Source: a virus. Taken from it: 32,957 nt of DNA. This document shows positions 16,092 through 20,398 of the stretch, piece by piece (positions within the stretch are counted from its first letter, which is position 1; each line of letters starts with the position of its first letter). Position numbers and translations under genes: made by a program. Under the pieces are notes generated by a model. That model did not search any database. It saw only the letters and a list, made by a program, of their open reading frames with translations, and was not told where the DNA came from. The stretch spans positions 1 through 32,957 of IMG/VR virus record IMGVR_UViG_3300008266_000267. One strand, 5' to 3'.

Positions 16092-16117
16092 CAACTGAAT
16101 AAAGGAGAGAAGAGGAA

Positions 16118-17146
16118 ATGGAAATTCCCCAACCAGAGAATAACATCTCTAGCCTGATCGACAAGCACCACGAGGCGCAGGCAGCAACTGAGATGCCCCG
16201 CCCGCACATGGGTTGCTCCATCGTCGGCCATCCTTGTGACCGCTGGCTGTGGCTGAACTTCCGCTTTGCGGTCAAGCCGACGTTTCCCGGCAGAGTCCTG
16301 CGGATGTTTAGAAGGGGTCGCAACGAAGAGGCCACGATCATCGATGATCTGAGGGCCATTGGCATCAAGGTGCGTGCGCTGGAGAGCCAAATGCGGGTTG
16401 AGTTTGGCAGTCACTTGTCGGGCAGCATCGACGCCATCCTAGACGCTGGCGTGCCAGGTGCAGTCAAGACCAAGCACGTTGCTGAGTTTAAGACTCATAG
16501 CAGCAAGTCGTTTGCTGATGTAGTCAAGCAGGGCGTTGAGAAGTCAAAGCTTGAACACTTTGTGCAGATGCAGTTGTACATGGCGGGAACAGGCATCCAC
16601 CGCGCTTTGTATGTTGCTGTCAACAAAGACGACGACAGCATCTACACCGAGCGTTTGGCATATGACGCAGCGGTGGCCGAAAAGTACATTGCCCGCGGTC
16701 AACGCATCGCGCTGGCTGATCGGATGCCCGAGCCGCTGAGTACCGATCCATCGTGGTACCAGTGCAAGTGGTGCCCAGCTTACTCAATGTGCCATGAAGC
16801 CCAGCATACAAAGGAAGTCAACTGCCGCACCTGTGCCCACGCCACCGCCAAGGCCGACAGCACTTGGCATTGCGCCCGCCATGACGCTGATGACATCCCG
16901 CTCGAGTGGCAAGTGCAGGGCTGCGAGAGTCACGTCCTGCACCCAGACATGGTGCATTGGAAGCGCAAGGATGGCCCGAATGAATGGACGGCAATTTACG
17001 TTGTGGACGGCAAGGACGTAGCCAATGGCGACCCAGACGCGCACATTTACTCCAGCAAAGAACTGCTGGCTAATCCTGCGATGTGCGCGATGGGAGATGT
17101 GGAGATTGAGAGGTTGCGGGGAAATGGGGCGAGGGTGGTTGGATGA
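16118..17146 (+). CDS. Cas4/RecB-like PD-(D/E)XK nuclease with Cys clusters
   Basis: This 342-residue nuclease has catalytic residues at D105 (SGSIDAILD), E123 and K125 (VAEFKTH), with the motif QMQLY at 150-154. This is the RecB/Cas4 (PDDEXK_1) signature. C40 together with C216, C219 and C225 (CKWCPAYSMC) is the usual four-cysteine [4Fe-4S] arrangement of Cas4/AddB nucleases. A second set (C236, C239, C252, C269) could bind zinc or another cluster. It probably resects DNA ends for recombination with the Sak4-like ATPase and the DUF669 protein. The start has a long purine-rich ribosome site (AGGAGAGAAGAGG). It ends inside the helicase remnant. Confidence 0.88.
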   Translation: MEIPQPENNISSLIDKHHEAQAATEMPRPHMGCSIVGHPCDRWLWLNFRFAVKPTFPGRVLRMFRRGRNEEATIIDDLRAIGIKVRALESQMRVEFGSHLSGSIDAILDAGVPGAVKTKHVAEFKTHSSKSFADVVKQGVEKSKLEHFVQMQLYMAGTGIHRALYVAVNKDDDSIYTERLAYDAAVAEKYIARGQRIALADRMPEPLSTDPSWYQCKWCPAYSMCHEAQHTKEVNCRTCAHATAKADSTWHCARHDADDIPLEWQVQGCESHVLHPDMVHWKRKDGPNEWTAIYVVDGKDVANGDPDAHIYSSKELLANPAMCAMGDVEIERLRGNGARVVG

Positions 17147-17223
17147 TCGAACTTCGGCCCTACCAGCAGCGCACCATCGACGAGCTGTATGCCTGGTTTG
17201 CATTGTGTCTGTCATTCCTATAA
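17143..17223 (+). pseudogene. Stranded 5' end of the SF2 helicase gene
   Basis: This frame of 26 codons starts in the stop of the nuclease gene (ATGA) and reads MIELRPYQQRTIDELYAWF before diverging to ALCLSFL and a stop. The first 19 residues match the N-terminus of the intact helicase at 17827 (MQLRQYQRRALDMLYAWF). Similarity ends exactly at a TGGTTTG heptamer that recurs at 17875-17881. It is best read as the original helicase start, cut off by the insertion of the HNH cassette. Confidence 0.85.
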
Positions 17224-17241
17224 AATGGACTGACGGACACA
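17204..17241 (+). promoter_or_regulatory. Inverted repeat around a -10 element, upstream of the HNH gene
   Basis: TGTGTCTGTCA (17204-17214) and TGACGGACACA (17231-17241) are 11-base arms with one mismatch that pairs as G-U in RNA. TCC/GGA extends the stem inward. The loop holds TATAAA (17219-17224), a good -10, with TTGCAT at 17198 as a possible -35. The right arm touches the AGGAG ribosome site at 17242-17246. It could be an operator or an mRNA hairpin limiting endonuclease synthesis. Confidence 0.7.
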
Positions 17242-17251
17242 AGGAGCCAAC

Positions 17252-17827
17252 ATGAAGTGTGCATTTGATGGGTGTGAGCGTGACGCCGTGGCAAAAGGAT
17301 ATTGCGACAAGCATTACCGCCGAGTGCTTAGGCATGGCAATGCTAATGATTTTGGAAGCAGAAAAGTTGAAGACGGAAACGCTGTTGAAAGATTCCATAA
17401 AAAGTATGAGATCAGCGAGTCTGGATGTTGGATATGGACGGCAGGCACAAGGCCAAACAGCAAAGGAGCTGCATATCCAAGGCATTGGACAGACGACGGG
17501 CAATCAATTGGTGCTCACCGGTTCTCGTTTGAACTAATGCATGGATCAATACCGAAATTTATGTACGTCTGCCACAAGTGCGATACGCCATTGTGCGTAA
17601 ACCCAGATCATCTGTTTGTCGGAACGCACCACGACAACATGCGCGATATGGTTGAAAAAAAACGCTCATTTATTGGTCGCGGCGAAAACAAAAAAGGACG
17701 CGCAAAACTGACCAATCAACAGGCAGATGAAATTAGAAAAATGGAAATTTCTAATCAAAAACTTGCAATTATGTTTGGCGTTAGCGCATCTTGTATTGGA
17801 AGAATTAAACGTGGAGAAAGTTACTAA
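17252..17827 (+). CDS. HNH homing endonuclease
   Basis: This is a 191-residue protein. An N-terminal zinc finger uses C3, C8, C18 and H21. A central HNH_3 domain (about 58-135) has AHRFSFELMHG with H89, CHKCDTPLCVNPDHL with H108, D111, N117 and H120, and GTHHDNMRD with N129. A C-terminal helix-turn-helix (LTNQQADEIRKMEISNQKLA through VSASCIGRIKRG) supplies sequence recognition. This layout is that of phage homing enzymes such as I-HmuI relatives. Codon use is A/T-rich compared with flanking genes, indicating transfer. The stop shares a base with the helicase start (TAATG). It should nick or cut helicase alleles that lack the element. Confidence 0.92.
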   Translation: MKCAFDGCERDAVAKGYCDKHYRRVLRHGNANDFGSRKVEDGNAVERFHKKYEISESGCWIWTAGTRPNSKGAAYPRHWTDDGQSIGAHRFSFELMHGSIPKFMYVCHKCDTPLCVNPDHLFVGTHHDNMRDMVEKKRSFIGRGENKKGRAKLTNQQADEIRKMEISNQKLAIMFGVSASCIGRIKRGESY

Positions 17828-19416
17828 TGCAACTGCGGCAATATCAACGCCGAGCATTAGACATGCTCTACGCATGGTTTGAGAAGAACGCAACAGGCCA
17901 TCCAGTTTTGAACATGCCTGGCGGGTCTGGCAAGTCAGTTGTGATTGCGTCGCTGGCGAAGGATGCTTTGCAAAACTGGCCGGACACGCGAATTTTGATG
18001 TTGGTGCATAGCAAAGAGCTGATCCTGCAAAACGCAGACAAGCTTCGCAAACTGTGGCCGGACGCACCGCTGGGCATTTACAGCGCAAGTGTTGGGCAAA
18101 GAAACTTTGGCAACCCGATCACTTATGCAGGCATTGGCTCAGTTGCGAAACGGGCGAAACAACTGGGCCACATAGATTTGTGCATCATTGACGAGGTTCA
18201 TGCCGTGTCCACGGTAGAAAGTGGCATCTATCGAAAGCTGATAGCCGAGCTGCTTGGCATGAATTCAGCCATGCGAATCGTGGGGTTAAGCGCAAGCCCT
18301 TACCGGCTTGGGCATGGAATGATTACCGAAGGGCCGACCGCCATCTTTTCAGAAATACTGGAGCCAGTTGGGATCGAGGAGCTTGTTTTTAAACAGCATT
18401 TGGTGCCGTTGCGATCCAAGCTCACAACGCACCGATTGGAAACTGACGGACTGCATAAGCGGCAAGGCGAATACATTGCTTCTGAGATGGAAGCCAAGTT
18501 CAACACCGCTGGCCACAATCAATCTGTGGTGGCCGAAATCATTGACAAGGCAAGCAACCGCGCACATTGGCTGATCTTTTGCTCAGGCGTGGCCCATTCT
18601 GAAGCGGTAGCTGAGTGCTTGCGTGAGGCTGGCATTGCGGCTGAATCGCTAGACGCTACGCATAGCAAAACCGAGCGCGAACGCAAGTTGGCAGACTTTG
18701 AATCTGGCAAGCTACGGGCTTTGTGCAATGTCGGCATCTTGACTACTGGATACGATTTCCCTGCGCTGGACTGCATCGCGTTCTTGCGTGCTACCGCATC
18801 CCCTGGTCTGTATCTTCAAATGGCTGTGCGAGGGATGCGCCCCAGCCTTGGCAAAACCGATTGCTTGGTGCTGGACTTTGCAGGCGTCGTCGGCACTCAC
18901 GGCCCCATTACCTCGGTCACGCCGCCCAAGAAGCAAGGCGACGGCAACGGCGAAGCTCCGGTGAAGGTCTGCGACAACTGCGACGAGCTGTGCCCCATCA
19001 GCGCCAAGGTCTGCCCAGCCTGCGGTCACCCGTTCCCCGAGCCGGAGGCAAAGAAGCTCAAGCTGTACCAGGACGACATCATGGGCCTAGACGGCACCGA
19101 CATGGTTCTGACCGGCTGGAAGTGGCGCGAGCATACTAGTTTGGCAAGCGGCAAAATGATGTTGGCCGTGTCGTACTACGGGCGGCTTTCTGATCCCGCC
19201 GTGACTGAATACTTTCCGGTCTTGCATGAGGGTTATGCAGGACAGCGAGCCATGAGGGAGGTCATTAAGATTGCAGACAAGGCAAGAATTGTCGGCATGA
19301 ATGTAGACAATCTCAGCAGTTTGGCAGCGCAGTTGAGCTGCGGGAAGCCACCGATTCAGATTAAGTATAAAAAGGACGGGAAGTTTTTTAGGGTTTTGAA
19401 AAAGGAGTGGGAATAA
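17827..19416 (+). CDS. SF2 DNA helicase with C-terminal zinc ribbon
   Basis: This is a 529-residue protein. Walker A is PGGSGKS (31-37), the DEAD-box motif is IDEVH (121-125), motif III is SASPYR (155-160), GYDFPALD lies in motif V, and motif VI is QMAVRGMR (331-338). A zinc ribbon follows, with C382-x2-C385 and C396-x2-C399, and then a C-terminal domain that I do not recognise. It resembles phage UvsW/RecG-type and type III restriction-like helicases used in branch migration and replication restart. Its first 19 residues differ in DNA but not in sense from the stranded copy at 17143, so the 5' end came with the homing element. Confidence 0.9.
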   Translation: MQLRQYQRRALDMLYAWFEKNATGHPVLNMPGGSGKSVVIASLAKDALQNWPDTRILMLVHSKELILQNADKLRKLWPDAPLGIYSASVGQRNFGNPITYAGIGSVAKRAKQLGHIDLCIIDEVHAVSTVESGIYRKLIAELLGMNSAMRIVGLSASPYRLGHGMITEGPTAIFSEILEPVGIEELVFKQHLVPLRSKLTTHRLETDGLHKRQGEYIASEMEAKFNTAGHNQSVVAEIIDKASNRAHWLIFCSGVAHSEAVAECLREAGIAAESLDATHSKTERERKLADFESGKLRALCNVGILTTGYDFPALDCIAFLRATASPGLYLQMAVRGMRPSLGKTDCLVLDFAGVVGTHGPITSVTPPKKQGDGNGEAPVKVCDNCDELCPISAKVCPACGHPFPEPEAKKLKLYQDDIMGLDGTDMVLTGWKWREHTSLASGKMMLAVSYYGRLSDPAVTEYFPVLHEGYAGQRAMREVIKIADKARIVGMNVDNLSSLAAQLSCGKPPIQIKYKKDGKFFRVLKKEWE

Positions 19417-19643
19417 TGCAAACTTATCCTTCAGAAGTTATTAACTGGACAATGCATCAATTGCTTCCAGTTTACAAATTAAAGCCAAGGCCAGTTAATT
19501 ATTGGACATATGAAAAATGTCTTGAAGATTCAAAAAGGTTTCAAAGTAGGAACCAATGGTCGCGGGGCAATCGAGGTGCGTTTCAAGCTGCATGGCGCAG
19601 CGGTTGGATGGATGAAATGATGCCGCCTGGGGGGCGCAAATGA
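19416..19643 (+). CDS. Small protein resembling a homing-nuclease DNA-binding motif
   Basis: This is a 75-residue protein with the core YWTYEKCLEDSKRFQSRNQW, then RGAFQAAWRSGWMDEM. The W-T-x-E-x-C...A-x-x-A...G-W pattern recalls the short repeats next to phage homing and Vsr-like endonuclease domains; no nuclease residues are present. The first 35 codons are A/T-rich compared with neighbours. The ATG shares one base with the helicase stop (TAATG), and the stop overlaps the next gene. It may be a remnant or a free-standing DNA-binding protein. The resemblance is by eye only. Confidence 0.6.
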   Translation: MQTYPSEVINWTMHQLLPVYKLKPRPVNYWTYEKCLEDSKRFQSRNQWSRGNRGAFQAAWRSGWMDEMMPPGGRK

Positions 19644-20398
19644 TCCATTACCACGGGTTGCCCATCAATCCTGCTACCGCTGCCGTTCGCGCGGTGTTAG
19701 GTGGGCACGCTTTTGTGTCTTACAGGCATTCGGGTCAATTGACTTTGGCGTTGGATATTTGCCAAAGTTTTGCGGTAGACAACGGGGCTTTTAGCGCATG
19801 GAAAAGCGGTGATCCGGTGCTGGATTGGTCTGAGTATTACGATTGGATCAGAGAGTTGCATCGTTACCCAAATTTTGACTTTGCGGTGATCCCAGATGTG
19901 ATTGATGGCGATGAAGAAGCAAATGATGCGCTTGTAACTGAATGGCCTTGGCGCAAATCAGCCCCGTGGATTGGCGCACCTGTTTGGCATTTGCACGAAT
20001 CTTTAGAGCGATTGTCTAAGTTGGTCGCAGAGTTTCCTCGCGTTTGCTTGGGCAGCTCTGCTGAGTACGCGCAGATTGGCACGCCAGCATGGTGGTCGCG
20101 CATGGCAGAAACAATGGATGTGGTGTGCGACAAAGAAGGCAGGCCTGCTGCAAAAATTCATGGGTTGAGAATGTTGAACCCAGACGTTTTTACACGGTTT
20201 CCATTTGCCAGCGCAGACAGCACTAATGTTGCCAAAAACATAGGAATTGACTCTGCTTGGCGTGGAACCTATACGCCGCCCACAAAAGAAGCAAGAGCTG
20301 CCGTCATGCGAGAAAGAATAGAGTCATCTCAATCTTTATGTGTTTGGGATAGGAAAGTTGGTCAGATTCAAAAGAACCTATTTTTAGGAGTGGCATGA
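19640..20398 (+). CDS. TGT/DpdA-like transglycosylase-fold protein
   Basis: This is a 252-residue protein conserved in many phages. Motifs seen are VDNGAFSAWKSG (D47-N48-G49), FAVIPDVIDGDE (81-92), APVWHLHES (113-121), CLGSSAEYA (136-144), IHGLRML (173-179) and FASADSTNVAKN (189-200, with D193). The DNGAF strand and the later SADS aspartate are placed like the two catalytic aspartates of queuine tRNA-guanine transglycosylases. Phage relatives of these enzymes (DpdA) exchange guanine in DNA for 7-deazaguanines. No preQ0 synthesis gene is present here, so the base would come from the host. The fold assignment is moderate and the DNA role is inference. The ATG is coupled by ATGA. Confidence 0.6.
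   Translation: MIHYHGLPINPATAAVRAVLGGHAFVSYRHSGQLTLALDICQSFAVDNGAFSAWKSGDPVLDWSEYYDWIRELHRYPNFDFAVIPDVIDGDEEANDALVTEWPWRKSAPWIGAPVWHLHESLERLSKLVAEFPRVCLGSSAEYAQIGTPAWWSRMAETMDVVCDKEGRPAAKIHGLRMLNPDVFTRFPFASADSTNVAKNIGIDSAWRGTYTPPTKEARAAVMRERIESSQSLCVWDRKVGQIQKNLFLGVA

Follow-up and report, generated by a model that had tools for sequence, protein, structure and literature searches.

The window analysed here is a viral stretch of 32,957 nucleotides, and the genes and features described below are read on its plus strand. A Cas4-type exonuclease gene (16118..17146; PHROG 1990, E 1.6e-92), which belongs to the resident recombination module and would provide a left homology arm, is followed by a stub, i.e. 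the first codons of a former resident helicase gene (17143..17202). Then come a conserved inverted repeat in the leader of the element (17203..17242), located directly 5' of the ribosome-binding site GGAG (17243-17246), and a gene encoding an HNH-family nuclease of 191 aa (17252..17827). A complete helicase gene lies behind it (17827-19416). This gene is chimeric, with imported and recoded 5' two thirds (codons 1 to ~341; 17827..18850), a resident 3' third (18851..19416) and a right recombination junction at 18796..18870, within the conserved motif VI region (SPGLYLQMAVRGMRPSLGKTDC) or immediately behind it.

Upstream of the helicase, the Cas4-type exonuclease is accompanied by a Sak4-like annealing protein and a single-strand-binding-like protein, and a small resolvase-like gene lies downstream of the helicase region. 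From these matches to recombination proteins, the target of the element sits in the phage's own recombination module. The helicase belongs to SF2 (Pfam ResIII and Helicase_C), and its nearest solved structure by sequence is the RadD repair helicase (E 1.6e-43). A scan of a genome collection with the helicase returned distant archaeal matches only, so no host or prophage was found for it. The nuclease carries an HNH catalytic domain (Pfam HNH_3, E 1.6e-10, above the gathering score). A C-terminal helix-turn-helix gave weak matches in its relatives, L084 among them (E 0.0009-0.008), and the window protein itself matched the PHROG 517 helix-turn-helix at E 6e-4. No sequence relative of this protein was present in the PDB, and its AlphaFold model (mean pLDDT 42.5) was too poor for use. 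The leader inverted repeat folds at -28.2 kcal/mol (z -5.1), with a mean column identity of 88% among 16 aligned leaders; despite this strong conserved fold, the hairpin displayed no covariation beyond that of shuffles. Regulation by RNA hairpins located near the start has been described for homing nuclease genes of phages (PMC2988022). In addition, the window encodes 3' of the helicase (19640-20395) a protein matching PHROG 887 (queuine tRNA-ribosyltransferase-like, E 3e-74), possibly involved in DNA or tRNA base modification.

The start of the helicase gene is thus present twice. The left copy (17143-17199) reads MIELRPYQQRTIDELYAWF and its ATG overlaps the exonuclease TGA as ATGA, i.e. the coupled position behind an upstream nuclease gene given in the initial annotation. 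The right copy, from 17827, reads MQLRQYQRRALDMLYAWF, and its ATG overlaps the TAA stop of the HNH gene as TAATG. The left open reading frame runs on inside the element up to a stop codon at 17221-17223. The two starts share 35 of 54 nucleotides, and their match reaches 67 in BLOSUM62, while none of 300 shuffles exceeded 33. Twelve identical residues out of 18 had been announced; our recount gives 11, and 12 only when both initiator methionines are paired. Seven of these 11 identical residues differ in codon, as had been claimed (at least seven synonymous differences), and the heptamer TGGTTTG is indeed present in both copies. The two-copy arrangement around the HNH gene is therefore confirmed as first described. 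One could imagine a split gene or an intron, the left copy being a first exon spliced to the right part or encoding a separate subunit, as the stub and the helicase are collinear and transcribed in one direction. We nevertheless consider this hardly conceivable, because the start recurs in the right copy, complete with an ATG, Rfam gave no intron match, and L029, L036, L099 and L102 lack the stub. In these four loci the element abuts the exonuclease end, as expected if the stub were debris. Two specific candidates were also rejected: a group I intron, since Rfam gave nothing up to E 1 within 16100-19500 and the gene start is duplicated, not interrupted; and an intein, since the nuclease is a separate open reading frame with a stop codon (TAA) overlapping the helicase ATG and no in-frame fusion. 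In another phage (L010:2201-2965), the stub and the gene of a second HNH family share one reading frame, which is open over 254 codons (LMLRDYQQRTIDQLYALQCKY..MGKPII); a fusion or a coupled translation is thus possible there.

We then compared the window with element-free relatives (L048-L058) and with another phage group (L006-L047). The upstream genes share 80-85% nucleotide identity with the element-free set, and the stub ~80-93%. As proposed earlier, the left copy is what remains of the old helicase: it shares 51 of 57 nucleotides with the start of L058, and all 19 residues are identical from the isoleucine on. From 17203 to ~18800, similarity to these relatives is absent except for short weak matches. 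BLAST similarity returns from 18799-18802 (~18800-18850), with 80-89% identity thereafter. At the protein level, helicase codons 1-324 mostly show 42-62% identity to the element-free set (<=67% in the first 18 codons), while codons 325-528 mostly show 86-94%, with 71-78% in places for L062-L064. The pattern is reversed with the other group, to which the helicase front is 82-94% identical. The maximum-likelihood breakpoint falls at codons 341-348 (~18847-18870), with a 2dlnL of 140-197 against permutation maxima of 15-25. The tree of codons 25-318 groups the window with element-bearing phages (p-AU 1e-46 when forced with the residents), while in that of codons 351-524 it branches within L048-L058 (p-AU 2e-8 when forced with the element-bearing phages). 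The GC content at the third codon position shifts from segment to segment: it is 0.69 for the exonuclease, 0.40 for the HNH gene, 0.58 for the helicase front and 0.72 for the helicase back. On these sequence comparisons, the helicase consists of a foreign part, codons 1 to ~340, and a resident 3' third. The proposal that a foreign helicase start had arrived to the right of the HNH gene is therefore borne out, but the size is not: the import comprises the HNH gene plus ~340 codons, not an 18-codon exon. Relatives devoid of the element had also been predicted to begin as the left copy does and to go on into EKNATGHPVL, which does not hold for the resident allele, where AANPHGNPCVV or NAGNTGNPCVV is read instead; the reading IELRPYQ..EKNATGHPVL was found in hybrid alleles (L001, L003 and L004). 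Two situations contrary to the initial annotation, i.e. the left fragment as an independent small gene or a helicase start always resembling the right copy, were not found among relatives.

To describe the relatives, all of them metagenomic contigs and some short, viral contigs were scanned with the helicase (80 loci), with the nuclease (26 loci) and with the unrecoded L058 helicase (80 loci), and three further scans preceded the final count of nuclease/helicase associations. Resident starts (type 2) read YQQRTIDQLYAWF or YQRRTIDELYAWF and were found in 83 uninterrupted loci, with 56 distinct starts. Recoded starts are of type 1 (RALDMLYAWFEKN) or type 3 (SRSIEMLYDWM). A stub located 5' of a complete recoded helicase was identified in 33 loci; all 33 stubs are of type 2 and none of the right copies is. 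For the window's nuclease family, 17 non-redundant loci carry different stubs, each of which ends at a TGG with TT behind it. The pattern is kept when another gene lies between the exonuclease and the stub (L002, L011-L013, L023, L059). Stub distances track the resident back part (rho 0.60) and the exonuclease (0.55) above the imported front (0.37); this Mantel-type test goes in the right direction, with a moderate difference and with HNH, stub, N-block, C-block and exonuclease distances all correlated. Beside other nuclease types, many loci have no stub, which we read as later deletion. In the back-part tree, recoded-front helicases stand beside several resident lineages (the L048 group, L080, L168, L170, L171 and L173). 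The type-1 chimeras tested break at codons 340-352, at or just past the conserved motif VI region. Of the five type-3 chimeras tested, four have their breakpoint near codons 154-162 (motif III; one ranges to 179) and the fifth near 318. None of the 62 non-redundant helicases with a nuclease directly upstream is of type 2, and none of the 63 unrecoded (type-2) helicases has such a nuclease, type-1 and type-2 helicases coming here from scans with different queries. The nuclease query, which is the least biased test, returned recoded helicases only, and in the scanned loci no member of the window's nuclease family turned up elsewhere than at the helicase. That the arrangement results from an assembly artefact joining two phages, as contigs from metagenomes might suggest, is very improbable, the same architecture being repeated in dozens of contigs from different metagenomes.

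Three other nuclease types were found in other phages at the same target of ~15 bp. A second HNH family (36-43% identical) is inserted after TATGCG, and an endonuclease-VII-type protein after TGGTT. The third type, inserted after GACCAGC, contains NUMOD3 and I-HmuI-type motifs, and its N-terminus resembles GIY-YIG on visual inspection. Beside related HNH genes of five named phages (L176-L180), no clear upstream duplicate of the start of the downstream gene was detected; for L177, the score was 36 against a shuffle maximum of 40. In Roseobacter phage CRP-901 (L179:1909-4138), an annotated HNH gene overlaps the helicase gene directly downstream, and in Vibrio phage 1.191.O (L180:2764-5423) a hypothetical gene matching the HNH query overlaps a downstream helicase; a stub was detected in neither. 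In three loci (L041:2160-2887, L040:322-1067 and L023:1592-2427), a further nuclease-like open reading frame splits the exonuclease gene near residue 229-233, with no Rfam intron match at these genes. The interrupting frame of L023 has, by eye, a GIY-YIG-like start and zinc-binding repeats. By eye on translations, methyltransferase-like or other genes also occupy the exonuclease/helicase junction of L001, L011, L013, L021, L048 and L052-L055. These extra genes are frequent in relatives and precede the helicase start codon without lying inside the helicase.

Ordinary phage mosaicism could in principle have produced the locus, a helicase segment and a passenger nuclease being exchanged by homologous or illegitimate recombination, with a nuclease that does not cut the helicase gene. 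The breakpoints lie within conserved motifs, which would favour recombination of any kind, and relatives often carry unrelated genes inserted at the exonuclease/helicase junction. However, the position of the left junction is identical in the 17 non-redundant loci, four nuclease types enter one stretch of ~15 bp, and the association of the nuclease with recoded targets is exclusive, so that we regard mosaicism as unlikely. Even less likely, in our opinion, is a helicase front acting as selected cargo (e.g. escape from a host defence or inhibitor), the nuclease hitch-hiking or promoting the exchange. The length of the imported tract and the persistence of the recoded front without nuclease in several loci agree with such a selection, but at least two recoded front types (ALDM and SIEM starts) occur with one nuclease, and no single favoured helicase front therefore explains the link.

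Recoded alleles without the element were found in seven loci (L001, L003, L004, L014, L021, L028 and L030). In L001, L003 and L004, a resident-like first stretch (IELRPYQ) is joined to the recoded stretch, without the window's nuclease. In L014, the upstream gene is the same as in L012 and the recoded start is joined directly to it. These four loci fit a loss of the element by recombination between the stub and the recoded start; alternatively, the recoded tract alone may have been transferred. Loss of the element does not bring back the old target.

Taken together, a free-standing HNH homing element that replaces the start of the helicase gene and leaves a stub of the old start behind is the likely explanation. 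This reading draws, at the sequence level, on the stub, the nuclease, the chimera, the breakpoints, their recurrence, the exclusive link with recoded alleles and the recoded alleles devoid of the element. The element would pass between related phages during mixed infection, and its nuclease would cut the unrecoded (type-2) start of the RadD-like helicase gene near codons 12-19. Homologous recombination would then repair the break from the donor copy, with the helicase stub and the upstream exonuclease gene as the putative left arm and a conserved helicase motif as the right arm (motif VI in the window, motif III in some relatives). The nuclease gene and the divergent 5' portion of the helicase would thus be copied in together. 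As the imported start brings along an ATG that overlaps the stop codon of the nuclease gene, a complete helicase gene is kept and the chimera would presumably work. The imported target, altered at protein and synonymous positions, should be uncuttable, and the old helicase start would be left behind as the stub. In L012, TATGCGTGG is the same in the stub and in the recoded copy; resistance must then rest on other positions. The idea of homing by gene-start replacement put forward initially is thus upheld in its core, but not as a single snapshot, the process being recurrent, with several nuclease types. On balance, we favour the view that several unrelated nuclease families have independently become "cut and rescue" elements at one site of ~15 bp, each with a recoded 5' module, and that their joint action exchanges the helicase front again and again in phage populations in nature, as a natural counterpart of home-and-rescue drives on the 5' end of a gene.

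The closest known systems that we compared are eukaryotic. WHO elements of the yeast gene FBA1 (Coughlan et al. 2020, PMC7282813) encode a nuclease that cuts one allele of the host gene, integration swapping one gene end for a resistant version; the corresponding cleavage in phages is presumed. Part of the old end persists next to the nuclease gene and is proposed to act as a homology arm (PMC7282813), and by analogy the phage stub may be a left homology arm. The chimera and the stub correspond to this mode, with one gene end replaced by a divergent version and a remnant left. WHO elements differ in being found in yeast, with LAGLIDADG/intein-derived nucleases with a zinc finger, a replaced 3' end and stacked clusters, whereas the phage elements have HNH (also endonuclease-VII or GIY-YIG) types, a replaced 5' end and single stubs. 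Membership of the WHO family itself was rejected, as an HNH_3 nuclease in a phage helicase gene is not a LAGLIDADG/intein-like protein with a zinc finger in FBA1. Fungal mitochondrial mobile open reading frames with C-terminal substitution (Glomus atp6, atp9, cox2 and nad3; Allomyces atp6) likewise associate an endonuclease frame with a foreign gene end, giving a hybrid gene with the native end displaced, but they are mitochondrial, concern the 3' end and encode LAGLIDADG or GIY-YIG enzymes (PMC3630166). Membership of that family is ruled out by nuclease type, host and gene end.

Among phages, intronless homing by the Seg/Mob nucleases of T4 (review PMC2988022; for SegF, Belle et al. 2002 as cited there) also involves a free-standing nuclease adjoining its target gene, with co-conversion of flanks and marker exclusion, and SegE targets the helicase gene uvsW (PMC2988022). 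According to that review, free-standing enzymes cut hundreds or thousands of bases away from their insertion site (PMC2988022), whereas the element described here lies within the start of the gene, with a stub left beside it, a junction that suggests a cleavage site at the insertion point. Home-and-rescue gene drives (PMC7968924) combine cleavage of an essential gene with delivery of a rescue copy; they are an analogy only, being synthetic, CRISPR-based and used in flies. Replacement of a 5' gene end in phages was not found in the literature searched, which mostly did not cover subscription journals, and this absence is not proof.

Homing that replaces a gene end has been described in yeast and in fungal mitochondria; with our results, its known range would come to include phages, HNH nucleases and the 5' end of a gene. 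The resident, invaded and element-lost alleles are a large natural series for the choice of targets, resistance and tract length. Such replacement would also account for the differing histories of the front and the back of a single phage gene, which is a trap for the phylogeny and annotation of phages.
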